NCBI RefSeq assembly: GCF_900113175.1
Contig: NZ_FOOK01000005.1
Location: 1 to 64,000 of the forward strand
DNA from: Planifilum fulgidum
Lineage (GTDB): Bacteria; Bacillota; Bacilli; Thermoactinomycetales; DSM-44946
Length of the DNA stretch: 64,000 bases
Direction of reading: 5' to 3'
Made by a program: the position numbers and the translations under genes. The notes beneath the pieces were generated by a model. The model did no database searches. It worked only from the letters and a program-made list of their open reading frames with translations, and was not told where the DNA came from. This document shows, piece after piece, positions 13,661 to 49,600 of this stretch (its first letter is position 1; every line of letters begins with the position of its first letter).

Positions 13661-15547
13661 ATGAGTTATCGCGCTGGAGAGTACGATGTGATCGTCGTCG
13701 GCGCGGGGCATGCCGGTTGTGAGGCGGCTTTGGCCGCGGCGCGGATGGGTTGCCGGACGCTCCTGCTCACCCTGAGCCTGGACACCATCGCCTACATGCC
13801 CTGCAACCCTTCGATCGGCGGGCCGGCCAAGGGGCATGTGGTGCGGGAGATCGATGCCCTGGGCGGGGAAATGGCGCGAAATATCGACAAGACCCATATC
13901 CAGATGCGGATGCTCAACACCGGCAAGGGGCCGGCCGTCTACGCCCTGCGGGCCCAGGCGGACAAGGTGAAGTACCAGCAGGAGATGAAACGGACCCTGG
14001 AGGCGGAGCCCAATTTGGATCTCCATCAGGCGATGGTGGAGAAGCTGGTCGTCGAGGACGGGGTGTGCCGGGGGGTGATCACCCGCACCGGCGCCGAATA
14101 CCGCTCACGGGCCGTGGTGCTGACGACGGGGACCTATCTGCGCGGAAAAATTTTCATCGGCGATCTGTCCTACGAAAGCGGCCCGAACAACCTGCAGCCC
14201 TCCGTCAATCTGTCCTACAACCTGATGGATTTGGGCTTTGAGATGGTCCGATTCAAGACGGGGACTCCGCCCCGGGTGAACAGGCTGACCGTCGACACCG
14301 ACAAGATGGAGATCCAACCGGGGGATGAGGAGCCGCGGGCCTTCTCCTATGAGACCACCGAGTACATCACCGATCAGCTTCCCTGTTGGCTGACCTACAC
14401 CAATGAGCGGACCCATGAGGTGATCCGCCGCAATTTGCACCGGGCGCCGATGTATTCCGGAATGATCGAGGGGCGGGGCCCCCGCTACTGCCCCTCCATC
14501 GAGGACAAGATCGTCCGCTTTGCCGACAAGGCCCGCCACCAGATCTTCCTGGAGCCGGAGGGAAGAGACACCCTGGAGATGTATGTGCAGGGGTTGTCCA
14601 CCAGCTTGCCGGAGGATGTGCAGCGGGAGATGCTGCGGACGATCAGGGGCCTGGAAAAGGTGGAGATGATGCGCACCGGTTATGCCATCGAATACGACGC
14701 CATCGTCCCCACCCAGCTGTGGCCCAGCCTGGAGACGAAGCTGGTGGAGAACCTGTTTACGGCGGGGCAGATCAACGGCACCTCCGGCTATGAAGAAGCC
14801 GCCGGCCAGGGAATCATGGCCGGGATCAACGCCGCAAGGAAAGTGCAGGGGAAGGAGCCGGTGATCCTGGACCGTTCCCAGGCCTATATCGGCGTCATGA
14901 TCGACGATCTGGTGACCAAGGGAACGGAGGAGCCCTACCGCCTCCTCACCTCCCGGGCGGAATACCGCCTTCTCCTTCGCCATGACAACGCGGACCTCCG
15001 CTTGACGGAACTGGGTTATGAGATCGGATTGATCCCCGAGGAGCGGTACCGCCGGTTTGTCGCCAAAAAACAGGCGATCGAGCGGGAAATGGCGCGGCTG
15101 AGAGAGACGAGGGTGAAACCGACTCCCGAGGTTCAGCGGATCCTGCGGGAGGCCGGGTCCAGCGAATTGAACAGCGCCGTCGAGCTGGCCCAGCTGATCA
15201 AACGGCCCGAACTGGGGTACCGGGAGATCAGCCTCATCGCTCCGCCGCCGGAACCGGTTCCTCCGGAGGTGGCGGAACAGGTGGAGATCCAGCTGAAGTA
15301 TGAGGGATATATCCGGAAATCGCTGCAGCAGGTGGAAAAGATGAAGCGGATGGAGAACAAAAAGATTCCCTCGTGGGTGGACTATGACAAGATCCAGGGG
15401 ATTTCCTCGGAGTCCCGGGAAAAGCTGAAAAAGGTGCGCCCCCTGTCTCTCGGTCAGGCGTCGCGCATCTCGGGAGTCAATCCCGCGGACATCTCGATCC
15501 TGATGGTGTACATCGAACAGGGAGGAAAATCCTTCGCCAAGGCGTGA
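13661..15547 (+). CDS. mnmG: tRNA uridine-34 carboxymethylaminomethyl synthase MnmG (GidA)
   Basis: MnmG (628 aa) is the FAD/NADH-dependent partner of MnmE. The N-terminal FAD Rossmann motif is [18 protein letters not shown], followed by [18 protein letters not shown], the insertion domain, and the C-terminal helical domain with [18 protein letters not shown] chose ATG at 13661 with GGGGAG upstream over an in-frame start 36 bases earlier. A shortened relative of its FAD domain is encoded nearby at 16420-17793. Confidence 0.97.
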
Positions 15548-16381: not shown

Positions 16382-16417
16382 AGGGCCGAATCATTTCCCG
16401 GGAAATGATTCGGCCCT
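16382..16417 (-). terminator. Long perfect hairpin between rsmG and the MnmG-like gene
   Basis: A 16-bp perfect stem (AGGGCCGAATCATTTC with its complement, loop CCGG) lies two bases past the minus-strand stop. On the minus strand it is followed by a T-rich run (complement of GAAAAAAGAAG), so it ends the leftward transcript. It can also block rsmG read-through. Confidence 0.85.
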
Positions 16418-16419
16418 GG

Positions 16420-17793
16420 TCATCCCAGATTGTTGATCAGGTTCCGCAGTCCGCGAAGGGCGATTTTTCTCTTTTCCGACGCGTCCAGCGTCGATTGGTT
16501 TTCTTTTCCCCTCGAAAAGGGCATGATATCTTCCCAGGCGTTGTAGCCGTAGGGATCCTCCAACTGGATCGCTTCCCGCTTCAGGGGGGTGCTGCCCGAC
16601 TGCTCCAGGATCTTTCGGGCTTGTTCCCGCTCGATGAAGGAGATCTTTCTTTTCTCCCGTTCCGGCTCGGAACTTGCCGGTCTGTTTCCCTGCCGGTTGA
16701 TTTGGCGCTGTTCGGAGGCCGGCCGTTGTTCAATGCGCTGCTCCTGCGGCGCCTTTTTGGGATGCAGAGGAGGGACGGACTGCGAATCGCCTTCCATCGG
16801 TTTTTTCTTTTCTGCCCCCCCGTCGGCAAACCTCATTTTCACCGTTTTGGGTTGAACCTTGGGTTTTGCTTCCTGTTCCGCCGCGGGGTCCTCCCCTTTG
16901 GAATCCTCCCATACCAAGGATTGAAAGCGGTTTTTGCCCGGCTTTTTTTCCTGGGTCGGACTTTCCCGGTAGATCAAGGGATGGACTTTGGCCGTGCCGT
17001 CGTTTCGCTGCTTTTTTCGGCGCGATCGGTCCATGCGAAGGAGCGGTTCCTGAGGCCCTGTGGCGCCCTTGGAGGTGAGGAGAGAGATGGGTGAGGCTTC
17101 TTGAGCGGCATGGGCGGAATTCCTTTTGGGCGCTTTGGTTCTTTCCTCCTCATCCTTTTGCCGAGGCTGCGGGGGGATTTGCACGGCTTTTTCCCGGCCG
17201 TTGGGACGGTCCAGCAGCTTACGTCTCAGGTAGTTGTTCCTCTGCCGATAGATGGAAGAGATCTCTTTCCTGACGGCTGGTTTGGCCTCCCTTTTTTCGC
17301 CGGCGGCATCCTTCTCTTCATCCTGTTCCGGATCCTGCTCCGGGTGGCGGCTGGTTCGGCGGAGCAGTTTTTCCCGGATCCGCATCTCCCGCTCCCGCAG
17401 GCTTTTGCTTGGACCGGAAGAAGGCGTCCGGGGATTGCCGATCTGCAACGCAGCGGGCTCGTCGGAGCCGGGAGGATGCTCATTGCGCTGGACCTGGGCC
17501 TGCAGGACATAGATGGACGAGTCCCGATCCGGTTGGTTGAGGGTGGTTTGGATGGTGATGGACGGCTGCTTTTTGTTCTTGTGTTCGCTGCCGGAGGGGA
17601 TAAATGCCTGGATCAGCTCTTGTTTTAACGGAGACTCGTCGGAGGTGCTCCACATCATTGAAGCGATGGTTCCCGGGGAGAGGGAGATCAACAGGGTGGA
17701 GCACCCTTCGCGGGTGGCAGCCAATGCTGTTTCGCGTCCCGAACGGCCAGAGCCTATGACGATCACGTCAAATTCTCCACCTGTAAGCTGCAC
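16420..17793 (-). CDS. MnmG-derived N-terminal FAD-fold fragment fused to a long charged disordered tail; function unknown
   Basis: 457 residues from GTG at 17793, which has a very good ribosome binding site (GAAGGAGGG, 6-7 bases upstream). Residues 8-46 copy the MnmG dinucleotide-binding start: FDVIVIGSGRSGRETALAA, then GCSTLLISLSPGTIASM. Residues 81-100 line up without gaps with MnmG around YALRAQ (here YVLQAQ). The part of MnmG between these blocks, including CNPSIGG, is replaced or lost, so a complete FAD site and enzyme activity are unlikely. From about 110 to 390 the chain is low complexity, rich in Lys, Arg, Glu, Gln and Pro. The last ~70 residues look ordered again (EREQARKILEQSG, DPYGYNAWEDIMPF) and end in a basic helix, ALRGLRNLINNLG. 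It lies downstream of the ParM-like gene on the same strand. I do not recognise a named family. Confidence 0.75.
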   Translation of the reverse strand: MQLTGGEFDVIVIGSGRSGRETALAATREGCSTLLISLSPGTIASMMWSTSDESPLKQELIQAFIPSGSEHKNKKQPSITIQTTLNQPDRDSSIYVLQAQVQRNEHPPGSDEPAALQIGNPRTPSSGPSKSLREREMRIREKLLRRTSRHPEQDPEQDEEKDAAGEKREAKPAVRKEISSIYRQRNNYLRRKLLDRPNGREKAVQIPPQPRQKDEEERTKAPKRNSAHAAQEASPISLLTSKGATGPQEPLLRMDRSRRKKQRNDGTAKVHPLIYRESPTQEKKPGKNRFQSLVWEDSKGEDPAAEQEAKPKVQPKTVKMRFADGGAEKKKPMEGDSQSVPPLHPKKAPQEQRIEQRPASEQRQINRQGNRPASSEPEREKRKISFIEREQARKILEQSGSTPLKREAIQLEDPYGYNAWEDIMPFSRGKENQSTLDASEKRKIALRGLRNLINNLG

Positions 17794-18104
17794 AGTCGTC
17801 CCTCCTTCGCAATGAAATTCCCCGCCGGGTCCGGACAAGAAAAAACGGCGATGCTGCGGAATCGGCCCGGTTGCGGGAGATGGGGAAGCCCGCCGTTCAG
17901 GCCGGGACAAAGCCGGAACGAAGGGATGACGGCTTTGCCGATTTCCGCAGCCACCTCCGGGCTCCGAACCATGATGGGGAACCATGTTCCCCGGGAACAC
18001 GTAACGATCCGGCCAGGGATTGGTTGTGGCGGTTTTTGGGGCGGAATCCCCCCGAAGTGGTCTCCGGGAGGATCAGCCCGCCTTTGATCGGAGGATGGGC
18101 GAAA
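17794..18104. other. 311-base spacer between the ParM-like and MnmG-like genes
   Basis: No convincing reading frame lies here. It holds the MnmG-like gene's ribosome binding site (17800-17808), a dyad CAAAGCCG/CGGCTTTG around 17910-17940, and the compact dyad cluster at 17976-17998. No clear sigma-A promoter was seen, so the downstream gene may be co-transcribed with the ParM-like gene. Confidence 0.5.
17976..17998. repeat. Clustered inverted repeats GGGGAAC/GTTCCCC
   Basis: GGGGAAC (17976-17982), CAT, GTTCCCC (17986-17992) form a perfect dyad. A third arm GGGAAC (17993-17998) follows at once, so GTTCCC/GGGAAC is a second perfect dyad sharing the middle arm. This looks like overlapping operator half-sites or a switchable hairpin. 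It resembles parS in the GTTCC...GGAAC arms but lacks the CACGTG core. Confidence 0.55.
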
Positions 18105-19271
18105 TCACTTTTTCTCCGTTTCTTCTTTCTTTTCGGGAACCGTAAATTCTTCCTGAATGGTGGCGGCCACTTCCTGTTCGCTTTTGACCGGAACCGATTT
18201 GGATTTGGATTGGGAGAATTTGCAGAGTCCGAAGGCGTTGGCAAATTGCGCTTCGATTCCGTAGTCTTCCGCAAAGATGAGCTTGTCTCCGAAGCGCTCG
18301 CGATAATAGGGCTTGAAGGGAATGGATGCGCCGCCGGTCAGGATGATGTAGGTGATGTCGTCCGCGTAATCGAGGCGATGCCACACCTCATCCACCATCG
18401 CTTGACCCACTTCCTGGATGCAGCTCTGGACGATTTCCGACACGTTGTACACTTTTCCTTTGAAGCTGATTTCTCCCGAATGGATGACGCGGTTGAGGCT
18501 CCAAATCTGATACTCTTTGCCGGTCTTGTCGGGATCGATTTCCCGGGTGAACTCCAGCAGCCGCTTGGACAGGAGCTGATACACGCTCAGCATGGCGTGG
18601 CGAGAGGAAAAGCTCTGCCGCTTGATGATCGTTTCGCCGTGAAGGGTTTCCACATCGGAGGTGCCGAACCCGAGATCGTTGATGCTCACCTTTTGGATGA
18701 ACAGGTCTTCGTTGAGGAGCTGGCCGTCCCGGTCGAGGGCGATGTGGAACAGGGTGGCCATCGGCTGGCTGATGACGTACAGGTTTTCCCGCTTGATTTC
18801 GAATTCGATCCTTCTGTAGGGGAGGTTCCCCTGTTTGACCTCAAAGCTGTGCTTGCCGATCAGACGGCGTTTCAATTCTTCCTTGTAGTCGATGTAACTG
18901 TCCGTGGGAAGGGCGACGGACACGATCGGCTCTTTGCATCCCTGGAGCATCAGACCGGTGCTGACGCGGAACATGATCAGGTATTCCTTTTCGCGGAACC
19001 AGGTGGGGCTGAACAGCCGGCGCTCGTGGGAATCAAAGAGTTCGTCGTCCCCGGATTGCTCGATGGCCAGCTTCCCCACGAACCATTCCCGATCCCCTTC
19101 CGACTCCCGGTACATGATGTTGTGGGGATCGTTGTTGTAGGTGATCTCTCCCACCCGATTGGGAACGACCATGTTGCGAATAAAAAGTTTGTAAAATTTG
19201 TCCCCGTGACGGCAGACCACTTTGGTGCCGTAATATCCCTGGTCGTTTCCTATGTAGACCGGTGTTACCAT
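18105..19271 (-). CDS. ParM/StbA-like actin-type ATPase (chromosomal)
   Basis: 388 residues of the actin/Hsp70 fold. The phosphate-1 loop is GNDQGYYGTK near the N terminus, phosphate-2 is DLGFGTSDVE near residue 210, and the adenosine motif is ILTGGAS near residue 325. This arrangement matches ParM/StbA/Alp proteins that form dynamic filaments for plasmid segregation. The C-terminal ~35 residues are charged and probably unstructured. I chose ATG at 19271 because it follows GGGGGG and because the promoter places the transcript start near 19315, too close to the earlier ATG at 19310. No small DNA-binding adaptor (ParR) follows directly; the next gene on this strand is the MnmG-derived protein. 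Confidence 0.85.
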   Translation of the reverse strand: MVTPVYIGNDQGYYGTKVVCRHGDKFYKLFIRNMVVPNRVGEITYNNDPHNIMYRESEGDREWFVGKLAIEQSGDDELFDSHERRLFSPTWFREKEYLIMFRVSTGLMLQGCKEPIVSVALPTDSYIDYKEELKRRLIGKHSFEVKQGNLPYRRIEFEIKRENLYVISQPMATLFHIALDRDGQLLNEDLFIQKVSINDLGFGTSDVETLHGETIIKRQSFSSRHAMLSVYQLLSKRLLEFTREIDPDKTGKEYQIWSLNRVIHSGEISFKGKVYNVSEIVQSCIQEVGQAMVDEVWHRLDYADDITYIILTGGASIPFKPYYRERFGDKLIFAEDYGIEAQFANAFGLCKFSQSKSKSVPVKSEQEVAATIQEEFTVPEKKEETEKK

Positions 19272-19321
19272 TTTGTCATTTCCCCCCATACCTCGCTGAT
19301 AGTCAGCCATCTCTTAAAATG

Positions 19322-19351
19322 ATTCTATCAGCCCTTGTGGATAAGGGTCAA
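19322..19351 (-). promoter_or_regulatory. Promoter of the ParM-like gene with a DnaA box in its spacer
   Basis: On the minus strand TTGACC (complement of 19346-19351) and TAGAAT (complement of 19322-19327) are separated by 18 bp. The spacer contains a perfect DnaA box TTATCCACA (complement of 19336-19344). DnaA bound here would cover the RNA polymerase contact region and should repress or modulate transcription. Confidence 0.7.
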
Positions 19352-19476: not shown

Positions 19477-20613
19477 TCACAGGGATATCCGGGCCTTTCT
19501 TTTTTGGAAATCGGTTTCCGGATAATAGGTGTCCGCCACGATGACATTGGGTCCCGTGCAGCGGGCGGCCGGGCAGTAGCAGTGGAGGCGCCTGGCGACG
19601 GGGTGTCCGAGCCAGCGGTCAAAGGCGTCGCTCAGCCGGTCCCTCCGGATGTTCCCCAGGGGAGGAATGTCGCCGAAATCGGTGACGATGATGTCCCCGG
19701 TGAAGATGTTGACGTTGAGCCGGTTGCGTCCGTCCGGGTCGTGCCTGACGGTCACGCCCTCTTCCCGGTGGAGATCCCGCCACAATTCGACATCTTCCTC
19801 CCGGCTGCTGCAGGGGTAGAAGGGAAGGGTTCCGAACAGGATCCAGACGTCCGGGACCCGGGCCTTCAGCAGTCGGCGGACCGCATCCCGGTATTCATCC
19901 AGGGAGATCAGCTCCATGTCCCGGGCGAAATCGCTGGGGTACAGGGGGTGGATTTCGTGCCGGAGACATCCCATGGATGCCACGTCCCGGTGGATCGACT
20001 CAATGTGGGGGACGGTGAAGGGGCTGAGAAAGGTTTCGGCGGAGACGAACACCCCCGCTTTGGAAAGGGTTTTTGCGTTCTCCACCATTTGGACGAACAA
20101 CTTTTCCGCGGCGGCGGGGGAAACGTCCCGTTTGTGCCTGGCAAAGGCGATCCGGTGGAAATCCGAGGCATCCCTGTAATTGTAGGAGATATGGAGCACG
20201 TCCACATCCTCCACCCATCCCTCGTACCTGGAAAGGGGGAGGGTCAGATTGGTGTTGAGCTGGGTGTATAGCCCCCGCTCCCGGGCGTAGCGGAGGAGGG
20301 GCCGAATGATTTCCCTGACCGTTTTCGGATTGAAGACGGGTTCCCCGCCGGTGATGCTGAGGGTTTGCAGGGTGTCCACTTCTTCCAGGCGGCGGATCAG
20401 CTGTTCGACGGGAATCGGTTCTGCTTCCACCTCGGTGAGCATTTCCCCCACGGCGCAATGTTCGCAGCGAAGATTGCAAAGATGAGTGACGGTGAATTCC
20501 ACGCTGGTCAATTCGTAACGCCCCTTGGTGCTGCGGGTGTGCCAGGGGTCCCAAGGATCCCATTGGGGGGACAAGGGGCGTTTGCTTGTCTGTTGATCCA
20601 TGGCGGGATTCAC
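19477..20613 (-). CDS. yfkAB: Radical SAM protein of the YfkAB (CxCxxxxC) family
   Basis: 378 residues. The radical SAM cluster is CNLRCEHC (C46, C50, C53), followed by the SAM-binding GGEP in SITGGEPVFNP. Near the C terminus lies CYCPAARC, the CxCxxxxC motif that names the YfkAB group. The biochemical role of the family is not established. GTG at 20613 has AGGAGGTG five bases upstream; the longer frame to 20658 would start before that site. The gene diverges from noc, with a parS site in the gap. It is upstream of and parallel to the ParM-like gene, which has its own promoter. Confidence 0.88.
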   Translation of the reverse strand: MNPAMDQQTSKRPLSPQWDPWDPWHTRSTKGRYELTSVEFTVTHLCNLRCEHCAVGEMLTEVEAEPIPVEQLIRRLEEVDTLQTLSITGGEPVFNPKTVREIIRPLLRYARERGLYTQLNTNLTLPLSRYEGWVEDVDVLHISYNYRDASDFHRIAFARHKRDVSPAAAEKLFVQMVENAKTLSKAGVFVSAETFLSPFTVPHIESIHRDVASMGCLRHEIHPLYPSDFARDMELISLDEYRDAVRRLLKARVPDVWILFGTLPFYPCSSREEDVELWRDLHREEGVTVRHDPDGRNRLNVNIFTGDIIVTDFGDIPPLGNIRRDRLSDAFDRWLGHPVARRLHCYCPAARCTGPNVIVADTYYPETDFQKRKARISL

Positions 20614-20946
20614 GTTTTCACCTCCTGGGTGTCGGAGATACGGGCCCTGTTGGATCAAGGACCCATCGTATCATATCCAACCTTGTTGTGACATTCAAGC
20701 AGGGGCGGATGGAGGGAATGCCTCCTTTCATTCTATCGTATGTTTCGGGATGCCGCTTTTCCGCGCATCGGGAAATTCGGGGATTGTTCAAATTTGCAAC
20801 CCGAAGGCTTTTCGCTTTGTTTCCCGGATGTTTCACGTGGAACATCCGGGGCGGATTCTATTTAAAGGGGAGGTGGCTTCCGGTACAATGATGAATATAG
20901 GAGTATATGGCAGCGGATAGATTTGAATCAGGTGGTGTCCGATGCG
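20614..20946. other. Divergent spacer between the radical SAM gene and noc
   Basis: The 333 bases hold one parS site (20829-20844) and a possible noc promoter (TTTAAA 20861-20866, 17 bp, TACAAT 20884-20889). Nothing else was recognised. Confidence 0.5.
20829..20844. other. parS centromere site upstream of noc
   Basis: TGTTTCACGTGGAACA differs from the B. subtilis parS consensus TGTTCCACGTGGAACA at one position, a variant commonly found in real parS sites. Flanking CCGGA and TCCGG extend the dyad. ParB (22716-23582) would load here and slide as a CTP-dependent clamp. Noc recognises a related but different site. Confidence 0.92.
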
Positions 20947-22723: not shown

Positions 22724-23582
22724 CAAGCGGTTGGGAAAAGGACTCGGAGCGCTTCTTCCCTCGATCGATGTCACGGAAGACGACGTCGTCAACGAGGTGG
22801 ACGTCTCCGAACTCAGGGCGAATCCCTATCAGCCCAGGAAACAATTTGATCCCGATTCCCTGGAGGAGCTGGCGGAGTCGATCAAGGAGCACGGGATCAT
22901 TCAGCCCCTCGTCGTTCGGAAAAGCATCCACGGGTACGAGATCGTGGCGGGGGAGCGGCGTTTCCGGGCGGGAAAAAAGGCGGGGCTGACCAAGTTTCCG
23001 GTGGTGATCCGGGAATTTACCGATGAACAGATGATGGAGATCGCCCTGATCGAAAATCTGCAGCGGGAAGATCTCAATCCGATGGAAATCGCCAATGCCT
23101 ACAAGAAGTTGATGGATCACTTTTCGCTGACCCAGGAAGAGCTGGCGGCGCGGGTGGGGAAAAGCCGCCCCCATGTCGCCAATTTCCTGCGCTTGCTTCA
23201 GCTTCCCCCGGCGATTCAGGAGGATGTTTCACGTGGAACACTCTCGATGGGACATGCCCGGGCGCTGCTGGGAGTGAAGGAGCCGGAGGTGCAGATGAAG
23301 CTGGCGGAAAAGGTGAAAAGGGAAGGAGCCAGCGTCCGGCAGTTGGAGGAGTGGGTCCAACAGATCCATCAAAGCGGCGTCAAGAAGAAAAAGCCGAAGA
23401 AAGCGGAGAAGGTGGATCCGCAGATCAGACGGTACGAGGAGATGCTTCAGGAATCCCTGAACACGCCGGTGCGGATTCGTCACGGAAAGCGAAAGGGAAA
23501 GATCGAGATCGAATACTTCTCGCAGAGCGAGCTGGAACGGCTCCTGGAATTGCTCCAGCGGGATCCCCTGATCGGGGGGTGA
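22716..23582 (+). CDS. parB: Chromosome-partitioning protein ParB (Spo0J)
   Basis: 288 residues. The start [13 protein letters not shown] is the ParA-stimulating N terminus. It is followed by NPYQPRKQF, the CTPase motif [22 protein letters not shown], the helix-turn-helix [13 protein letters not shown] and a C-terminal dimerisation domain. It binds parS, spreads and recruits SMC to the origin. A parS site is embedded in its own coding sequence. Confidence 0.97.
23225..23240. other. parS site inside parB
   Basis: TGTTTCACGTGGAACA, identical to the site at 20829-20844, lies within the parB reading frame as it does in B. subtilis spo0J. Two identical 16-mers 2.4 kb apart beside parAB support the centromere call. 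Confidence 0.93.
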
Positions 23583-48051: not shown

Positions 48052-48810
48052 ATGACCAAGAGGAAAATCCGCCGTTACCAGCAGATCGCCAGCAAAATGT
48101 TGAAAACCAGGGTGCTTCAGCAGGATCCTTCCCTTCGGGGGGTGATTCCCGAGACCCGGTGGTATACCCGCCCGAATCTGGAGGAGATGCTGGAGAGGCA
48201 CGCGGTCGTTTTTGTCAAGCCGGACAAAGGCGGCGGCGGCGCGGGCATCCTTCGGATCGAGAAGCGGGATGCGGGGCGCTTTCGCGTCTGTTTCCGGACG
48301 CGCTGCAGGGAAGTGGAACGCATGCGCCTTTTTTCCGCCGTGGAATCCTGCTTTTCCCCCGCAAAGCATTATCTGATCCAGCAGGGAATTTCCCTCTCCC
48401 TTTACCGCGGCTCTCCCTTTGATCTCCGGATCCTGCTGCAAAGGCCGGGCCGCCGGTGGATCGTGTCGGGCATGGTGGCCAAAGTGGCCGCGTCCGGGAG
48501 GTTTGTGACCAACTATTGCCGGGGAGGTCATCCCCTGCCGGTGGAGACCGCTTTGAAGGCGGTGGTTCGCGAACCGGCGGAAAGGGAACGGATGATCAGA
48601 AACCTTCATCACATGGCCGAGCGGGTTGCGGAGGTGTTGAATGAGCGCTTTCCGGGGCTTCGGGAGCTGGGAATCGATGTCGGACTGGATCGGCACGGCC
48701 ATCCGTGGATCTTTGAGGTGAACACGAGACCACAATTTAAAATGTTCTCTAAAATCGGCAGAAGGGATCTCTTCGCAAAAATACTGAAGTATCATCGCAT
48801 GATTGTATGA
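48052..48810 (+). CDS. YheC/YheD family protein (ATP-grasp fold)
   Basis: 252 residues. FVKPDKGGGGAGILRI is the ATP-grasp nucleotide loop. LIQQGISLSLYRGSPFDLRI and the terminal GIDVGLDRHGHPWIFEVNTR, with acidic metal ligands and NTRP, match the YheC/D group of endospore-coat-associated proteins. It probably ligates or modifies a coat or envelope component, but the substrate is unknown. The ATG follows GGGGCGAAGC. It diverges from the MA peptidase gene. Confidence 0.85.
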   Translation: MTKRKIRRYQQIASKMLKTRVLQQDPSLRGVIPETRWYTRPNLEEMLERHAVVFVKPDKGGGGAGILRIEKRDAGRFRVCFRTRCREVERMRLFSAVESCFSPAKHYLIQQGISLSLYRGSPFDLRILLQRPGRRWIVSGMVAKVAASGRFVTNYCRGGHPLPVETALKAVVREPAERERMIRNLHHMAERVAEVLNERFPGLRELGIDVGLDRHGHPWIFEVNTRPQFKMFSKIGRRDLFAKILKYHRMIV

Positions 48811-48820
48811 TCCGCCGCAT

Positions 48821-48900
48821 TTCGACATAAAAATTATATCAAAATTTCTGTATTTTCGACAAAATATCCGGTTGACGGCCGGGCGGGCTCCTGATAGTAT
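48821..48900 (+). promoter_or_regulatory. Promoter with two Spo0A-box-like sites
   Basis: TTGACG (48872-48877), a 17-bp spacer and TAGTAT (48895-48900) form a sigma-A promoter. Upstream lie TTCGACA at 48821-48827 and 48855-48861. The second, in the context TTTTCGACAAAAT, is a near-perfect complement of the 0A box TTTTGTCGAAA. The region is AT-rich compared with its surroundings. Confidence 0.5.
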
Positions 48901-49030: not shown

Positions 49031-49600
49031 ATGTCGATCACCGTCGGCGTGTATATCGGGAAGAAGGACCGGATCATTCGCTATTGGTACGAGACGCTGC
49101 CCCGGGGGCAGTTTCCCGTATTGGTCAAGTTCTGCATCCTTTCGTATCTGAAGGGAACGGTGTTTCCCCTGGACACCGTCTGCGAAGTGTCCGCTTTCCG
49201 GGAACAGCTGAAAAACATGCCCAGCCTTCCTCCGACCCAGCGAAACGTGACGTTTACGGAAGACGACGGTTCCGTCTACGATTGGGTCATGCGGCTGGAA
49301 CCCGGTTTTCGGAGCGAAGAGATCAAAAACGTGCTGCAGCGGACCATCAGCCACACCTTGATGTCTCCTCGGCGCCCTGTTTTCCATTCTTCGGCATATG
49401 CGGTACATAATTCCGACCCGGGCGTGGAGCGCCGTGACGAATCCCGTACCCCGGTCTGGGCAGGCGTCGGGAACATGATCTGGGAAGGCGGCTCTCCGGG
49501 GGCGTTTCCTGCGTCGGGAACGATCAAGGATTCCTACGGTTGGGAGGATCTGGTGGCGACGGGAAGGGGCCGTTCGCTGGAAAACGGCAAGAGAAGCTGA
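49031..49600 (+). CDS. Unknown protein with a possible ribbon-helix-helix N terminus (ParR-like shape)
   Basis: 189 residues. The first ~40 look like a ribbon-helix-helix unit: a beta strand ITVGVYIGKKD, a helix DRIIRYWYETLP, the turn RGQFP, and a second helix VLVKFCILSYL. The LPxGxxxxxLxxxAL spacing resembles plasmid ParR proteins. The middle (55-120) is mixed, and the last 60 residues are Gly/Ser/Arg-rich with no predicted fold. ATG at 49031 has GGGGTGA six bases upstream. No partner gene is adjacent; the only actin-like ATPase in the window is 30 kb away. I do not recognise a named family. Confidence 0.7.
   Translation: MSITVGVYIGKKDRIIRYWYETLPRGQFPVLVKFCILSYLKGTVFPLDTVCEVSAFREQLKNMPSLPPTQRNVTFTEDDGSVYDWVMRLEPGFRSEEIKNVLQRTISHTLMSPRRPVFHSSAYAVHNSDPGVERRDESRTPVWAGVGNMIWEGGSPGAFPASGTIKDSYGWEDLVATGRGRSLENGKRS

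Follow-up and report, generated by a model that had tools for sequence, protein, structure and literature searches.

In type II plasmid partition (ParM-ParR-parC), the adaptor ParR has a ribbon-helix-helix (RHH) head, and its conserved, unstructured tail binds to the actin-like ParM in a hydrophobic pocket (PMC5016525). ParM systems are found on plasmids and occasionally on chromosomes, and a 2025 paper describing chromosomal ParMs with an adjacent ParR (cParMR; Desulfitobacterium, C. botulinum and others) holds that no part in chromosome segregation has yet been demonstrated for them (PMC12270681). Thermoactinomycetaceae are absent from the main text of that paper (PMC12270681). The RHH fold can also occur as a single-chain double RHH, as in F-plasmid TraY, a single polypeptide with the complete RHH dimer fold (PMC12117103).

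Here we analyse a 64,000-nt stretch of DNA (the window, meaning this whole stretch) from an order that corresponds to Thermoactinomycetaceae in NCBI terms. A ParM-like actin (Alp) is encoded there next to X, our name for the 457-aa product of the open reading frame at 16420-17793, and a further gene, Y, encodes a predicted RHH protein whose relatives carry the same C-terminal tail as X. As in type II plasmid partition, Alp is a ParM-like actin, and in Y a disordered linker joins a predicted RHH head to a conserved terminal tail. In contrast to the plasmid systems, this one is chromosomal and fixed across an order, has two putative adaptors with a common tail, one of which (X) carries an MnmG-derived head, and has as its RHH protein a predicted single-chain double RHH encoded ~31 kb off, not beside parM. 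Iterons were not found either: a search for parC-like repeats upstream of Alp gave no excess of repeated 8-mers over shuffles. Alp shares with the cParMs its being chromosomal and ParM-like, but cParR is mostly encoded next to cParM, unlike Y and Alp, and the main-text description of those systems contains no MnmG-derived partner and no shared tail (PMC12270681). X, whose head is an MnmG-derived beta-alpha-beta unit and not a ribbon-helix-helix, lies outside the ParR family. No paper on an X/Y/Alp system was found in the open-access literature, and we found no precedent there for a second ParM-type adaptor of the kind that X would be. The locus is of interest as a ParM-like actin that is chromosomally fixed in a whole order of mostly filamentous bacteria, beside noc-soj-spo0J, and conserved about as strongly as MnmG.

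The order was sampled with 42 genomes, 40 of them outside the basal family f2; presence counts refer to a single genome for each species, and statements of absence beyond the order to evenly drawn samples, not complete scans. The features of X and its presumed donor are as follows.

16420..17793, minus strand: X, from its GTG start through the stop codon; head derived from MnmG, charged and disordered middle, conserved tail
17801..17807, minus strand: X ribosome binding site AAGGAGG; AAGGAGG/GGAGG-type sites in nearly all relatives
16382..16417, minus strand: X terminator hairpin, 16 perfect pairs plus T-run; convergent with rsmG
17482..17793, minus strand: X head (residues ~1-104); aligns collinearly to MnmG residues 1-102
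16603..17481, minus strand: X middle, low-complexity and charged (39% K/R/E/D)
16420..16602, minus strand: X tail, last 60 residues; bipartite conserved motif up to the C-terminus, common to Y relatives
13667..15547, plus strand: mnmG, intact, probable donor of the X head (Pfam GIDA 1.2e-176)

A full X frame with its head is open in 38 of the 40 genomes outside f2, a count that includes G041, in which the X start runs off the contig. The X of G038 has 227 residues, with the tail present and the MnmG head absent, and G001 is a partial assembly whose contig stops just past mnmG, before the position of X. Between the window and its congener, dN/dS was 0.17 for the X head, 0.34 for the middle and 0.06 for the 60-residue tail; the tail came to 0-0.04 in the other computable pairs and hence to 0-0.06 over all of them, the head at 0.09-0.21 in five of seven pairs (0.39-0.54 in two f5 pairs), and X overall at 0.1-0.4. 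These ratios place X under purifying selection, strongest in the tail, and by frame retention and selection together X is a genuine gene. An earlier note on this DNA had taken X for a real gene, and open frames in all relatives having the locus, with dN/dS well below 1, bear this out; the check it had named, for decay of the frame or stops in relatives, was run and returned retained frames, with no neutral decay by dN/dS. The strong ribosome binding site that it had pointed out also recurs. Its dedicated terminator is a 16-pair hairpin with a T-run that sits between convergent rsmG and X and has as its core a perfect palindrome, ATTTCCCGGGAAAT (16393-16406), which we take to be a Noc-binding site.

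The head of X matched Pfam GIDA with an E-value of 6.2e-7, above the gathering score and confined to profile positions 1-61, with no C-terminal domain, and profile-profile comparison (hhalign) with MnmG gave a probability of 98.2 and an E-value of 3.6e-14 over MnmG residues 1-102. The resemblance to MnmG (GidA; PF01134, TIGR00136) that the note had described is hence well above chance, and the origin from mnmG that it had proposed is supported; on these alignments the head evidently derives from the mnmG N-terminus. The stretch between the two MnmG matches, which had been called changed or lost, is changed and strongly diverged but not lost, since the head is collinear throughout. The reported loss of CNPSIGG holds for all 38 members. 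GxGxxG is kept in 18 of the 38, the X of the window among them, and lost in 20, and together with the general loss of CNPSIGG this indicates that FAD binding is not the conserved function of X. AlphaFold2 (AF2) predicts a beta-alpha-beta start of the head (pLDDT 84-90 at residues 10-40). X also lacks ~80% of the enzyme and has neither the full catalytic body (whole PF01134) nor the C-terminal helical domains PF21680 and PF13932. Judged by the missing CNPSIGG and body, and by GxGxxG failing as a family feature, X falls outside the MnmG family. The lost catalytic motifs and the purifying selection support the non-enzymatic role suggested earlier, and MnmG catalysis by X is not plausible. The idea that the FAD fold was the reused part fared less well: GxGxxG has gone in half of the members and one lineage is headless, with tail and actin kept, which makes the tail the core of X. 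Purifying selection on the head in most pairs argues that the head has some specific function.

The middle of X is mostly disordered and very variable in length (whole members have 227 to 871 residues). Arg islands around residues 129-146, 178-194 and 263 are conserved in it, and its basic islands fall in two predicted helices. AF2 confidence was low outside the head core and the terminal helix, the latter reaching a pLDDT of about 89, and a fold search with the whole X model returned nothing usable because most of the model is disordered. The tail ends at the very C-terminus with the consensus LKRDxIEFEDAYGYxSWEEFxTPFS...EKRKIALRGLHNLINNLG and contains 13 of the 15 invariant columns of the X alignment, so that by alignment the last ~60 residues are the best conserved part of the protein. 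The charged, low-complexity remainder ending in a basic helix that the note had seen thus holds for the middle and the terminal helix, but misses that these last residues are the most conserved feature.

Alp, encoded immediately before X, is preceded by a promoter with no other perfect match in the genome of the window.

18105..19310, minus strand: Alp, ParM-like actin; first gene upstream of X (Pfam ALP_N, MreB-like_C)
19321..19351, minus strand: Alp extended -10 promoter, TTGACCC-N14-TGATAGAAT, conserved in 30/38 loci

X starts 311 bp downstream of Alp on the same strand. Both actin-like domains of Alp, N- and C-terminal, are present (PF17989, 6e-9; PF21522, 1.8e-8), and further matches were to the NCBIfam models ParM (E 8.5e-15) and PRTRC_D, both at about 1e-14 and both below their cut-offs (for ParM, the equivalog cut-off), and to PHROG 691 'partition protein' (1.6e-35). 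Against the PDB, the only sensible sequence match of the Alp profile was Dh-cParM1, and it was weak (E 0.015). By these profile matches Alp belongs to the ParM group. Copies across the order are 76-97% identical to that of the window, and the nearest plasmid and phage relatives are below 28% identity. Alp families form clades that match the genome families, so inheritance looks vertical; the Alp of G038 is nested inside f6, and the absent X head in that genome would therefore most simply be a loss.

Y lies in the same window and was missed in the earlier note; its relatives carry the X tail.

49031..49600, plus strand: Y, predicted tandem ribbon-helix-helix protein; tail end lost in this genus, complete in most relatives
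48855-48861, plus strand: Spo0A-box-like TTCGACA, 10 bp upstream of the Y -35 hexamer TTGACG (48872-48877)

A tail profile run over 399 Bacilli genomes retrieved the X proteins and, in a few genomes, Y, ~30 kb from X. Searches with Y as the query found it in 40 genomes of the order, two partial assemblies included, and in neither of the two basal genomes; among the 399 Bacilli it occurred in 36 and no other, all of them from the order and identical to the set with the X tail, and a sample of 397 further genomes of the phylum had none. AF2 modelled the head of Y (residues 1-112) with pLDDT mostly above 90, as strand-helix-helix twice. Its six best structural matches were all F-plasmid relaxosome chains (Z 5.0-7.0, rmsd 3.5-4.4), which we take to be TraY; the top match had a middling Z of 7.0 (rmsd 3.6 over 84 residues, 8% identity). 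These matches came from a second aligner, Foldseek alone giving no significant match for Y, and Pfam gave no RHH match in Y. With so middling a Z, a tandem ribbon-helix-helix head as in TraY is a strong lead from the predicted fold, short of proof. TraY is part of the conjugation relaxosome, and Y adds a linker and a tail. After the linker, most Y proteins end in LKRDxxxxEExYxxWEK...KGFSHLVNYLG. This tail is conserved in family f5 and most of f6, while f1 and part of f3 have a degenerate tail or none; in the genus of the window its last part is lost.

The core motif of Spo0A is TGTCGAA (PMC3485338), and TTCGACA is this motif read on the other strand. It precedes Y in 39 of 40 loci, where shuffled sequences gave 1.3, and lies 10-11 bp upstream of the -35 hexamer wherever this is readable, but such boxes are not generally conserved upstream of Alp (8/38) or X (6/39). 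The conserved site hints at sporulation control of Y.

The tails of X and Y align over their whole length (hhalign probability 96.3, E 2e-9), with a score of 46 against a maximum of 15 among the completed column shuffles, and this alignment shows that the tail is shared. A combined tail profile run over the 42 genomes retrieved X, and Y wherever its tail persists, and no convincing third protein; weak matches appeared at E 0.05-0.06, one of them the Y of G019. The X tail profile had no match in the basal family and, in the rest of the 399 Bacilli, only four partial matches (E 0.002-0.003).

X tail, Alp and Y co-occur exactly, with identical genome distributions, and all three are absent from f2 (two genomes, G003 and G008). 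The order mnmE-mnmG-rsmG-X-Alp-noc-soj-spo0J runs order-wide, being kept as far as soj wherever the contig reaches, local insertions aside; upstream of X, the window has Alp, a radical-SAM gene, noc, soj and spo0J. In f2, and in the outgroup loci where fully visible (L153, L157), rsmG is followed directly by noc, and f2 branches first in the order when MnmG, MnmE and RsmG are placed in a tree together with six outgroups, which argues for one gain. On the simplest reading, X and Alp would have entered the rsmG-noc interval by a single insertion, in the common ancestor of the non-f2 families, and the X head would have been taken from nearby mnmG. Two parS-like sites, TGTTTCACGTGGAACA, lie at 20829-20844 and 23225-23240, and parS is found near noc in most loci of the order; a place beside noc-soj-spo0J with parS is consistent with an origin-region role, without being evidence of one.

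We consider it probable that X is a non-enzymatic adaptor of the neighbouring Alp and Y a second adaptor, the tails of both docking on Alp. The X tail would dock on Alp filaments as the ParR tail does on ParM, and the Y tail would do the same, Y acting as a ParR-like adaptor that holds DNA through its predicted tandem RHH head. In X, a long flexible linker would present the MnmG-derived head and the basic islands, and X may either tie Alp filaments to a different partner or compete with Y for the filament. The process served could be segregation or positioning of the origin region, perhaps during sporulation, given the conserved Spo0A box of Y. Tail-Alp binding (by analogy with ParR), DNA binding by Y, the cargo of X and the process served are all inferred, and binding of both tails to Alp is the most economical model. 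The adaptor role for the ParM-like protein that the earlier note had put forward gains from the tail being common to an RHH protein, as ParR tails serve ParM, and from the confinement of the X, Y and Alp genes to the same genomes. Against the model, the Y tail is truncated or degenerate in the genus of the window and part of f3, which is unlike the prediction of an essential Y-Alp contact, Y lies 31 kb from Alp, unlike plasmid parMR operons, and the search upstream of Alp found no repeated iterons.

Alternatively, the shared tail could bind another partner (the membrane, a divisome protein or the ParB/Noc machinery), with X, Y and Alp merely serving the same process. The co-occurrence with Alp is genomic only, parS and presumed Noc-binding sites flank the locus, and the tail ends in a predicted helix, all of which would suit such a partner; we nevertheless regard it as unlikely, as the architecture of an RHH head and a conserved terminal tail fits the logic of ParR (PMC5016525) and Alp is the sole other gene found with an equally restricted distribution, in a search for others that was not systematic. 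Quite unlikely, in our estimate, is that only Y is the true ParR, whereas X, with no cargo, would be an anti-adaptor and tune filament dynamics by capping or titrating Alp. Two proteins with one tail, the long flexible linker of X with no recognisable cargo domain, and the known action of a ParR as a depolymerisation factor for Cb-cParM (PMC12270681) are all in keeping with this, but purifying selection on the X head in most pairs tested implies some specific function. If X instead regulated or scaffolded tRNA modification, its head mimicking MnmG and binding MnmE or an MnmG partner, the adjacency to Alp would be an insertion point only. The source of the head and the nearness of the gene to mnmE-mnmG speak for this reading, which we hold to be very improbable given that G038 lost the head and kept tail and Alp, that the strongest constraint is on a tail shared by a distant RHH protein, and that X tail, Alp and Y have equal genome distributions. 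Taking X for a duplicate of mnmG in decay, joined to a low-complexity frame by chance, would accord with a head only ~37% identical to MnmG, a FAD motif gone in half of the members and a low-complexity middle, yet this pseudogene reading is so improbable as to be negligible, being refuted by retained frames (38 genomes, open and full-length) and purifying selection (dN/dS 0.1-0.4 overall), with invariant tail residues and a conserved ribosome binding site also against it.

With the adaptor reading preferred, a wider scenario may be sketched, which we offer tentatively and think rather doubtful as a whole: an order-wide chromosomal actin system, acquired a single time close to the replication origin when the basal family split off or later, and having two adaptors whose unrelated heads, one of them from a tRNA-modification enzyme, carry the same actin-binding tail, would serve chromosome or origin distribution in hyphae and in sporulation, with Y under Spo0A. 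T. mirandus grows as a branching mycelium (PMC7840651). All 25 loci taken from the named genome collection, of which 24 carry a genus or species name, belong to the NCBI family Thermoactinomycetaceae, and it is our conjecture, resting on these named positives, that presence of the system goes with mycelial growth. If true, the system would be a candidate explanation of mycelial growth in these Bacilli. It poses sharp questions on tail-actin binding, the partner of the MnmG-derived head, origin positioning, hyphal growth and sporulation, and X offers a clear example of an enzyme fragment turned into an apparent cytoskeletal adaptor part.

Several smaller observations concern the loci themselves. 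The congener (L057), L074 and the three f5 genomes likewise have the palindrome ATTTCCCGGGAAAT downstream of X or of rsmG. The radical-SAM gene between Alp and noc (19477-20658) occurs, among the loci examined, only in the window and the congener. In the three f5 genomes (L061, L065, L069), ~1.6 kb of extra sequence lies between X and rsmG. The G038 locus (L094) is very divergent, with MnmE about 50% and MnmG about 65% identical, and keeps Alp, Y and a headless X. Besides a normal Y, G016 has three identical, tailless Y-like heads of 159 residues on separate contigs (L148, L149, L150), perhaps carried by a mobile element. Y is adjoined in the window by a predicted ATP-grasp gene (48052-48810; YheC/YheD-like, by eye), and related frames adjoin it in four other loci that were read (L106-L109).
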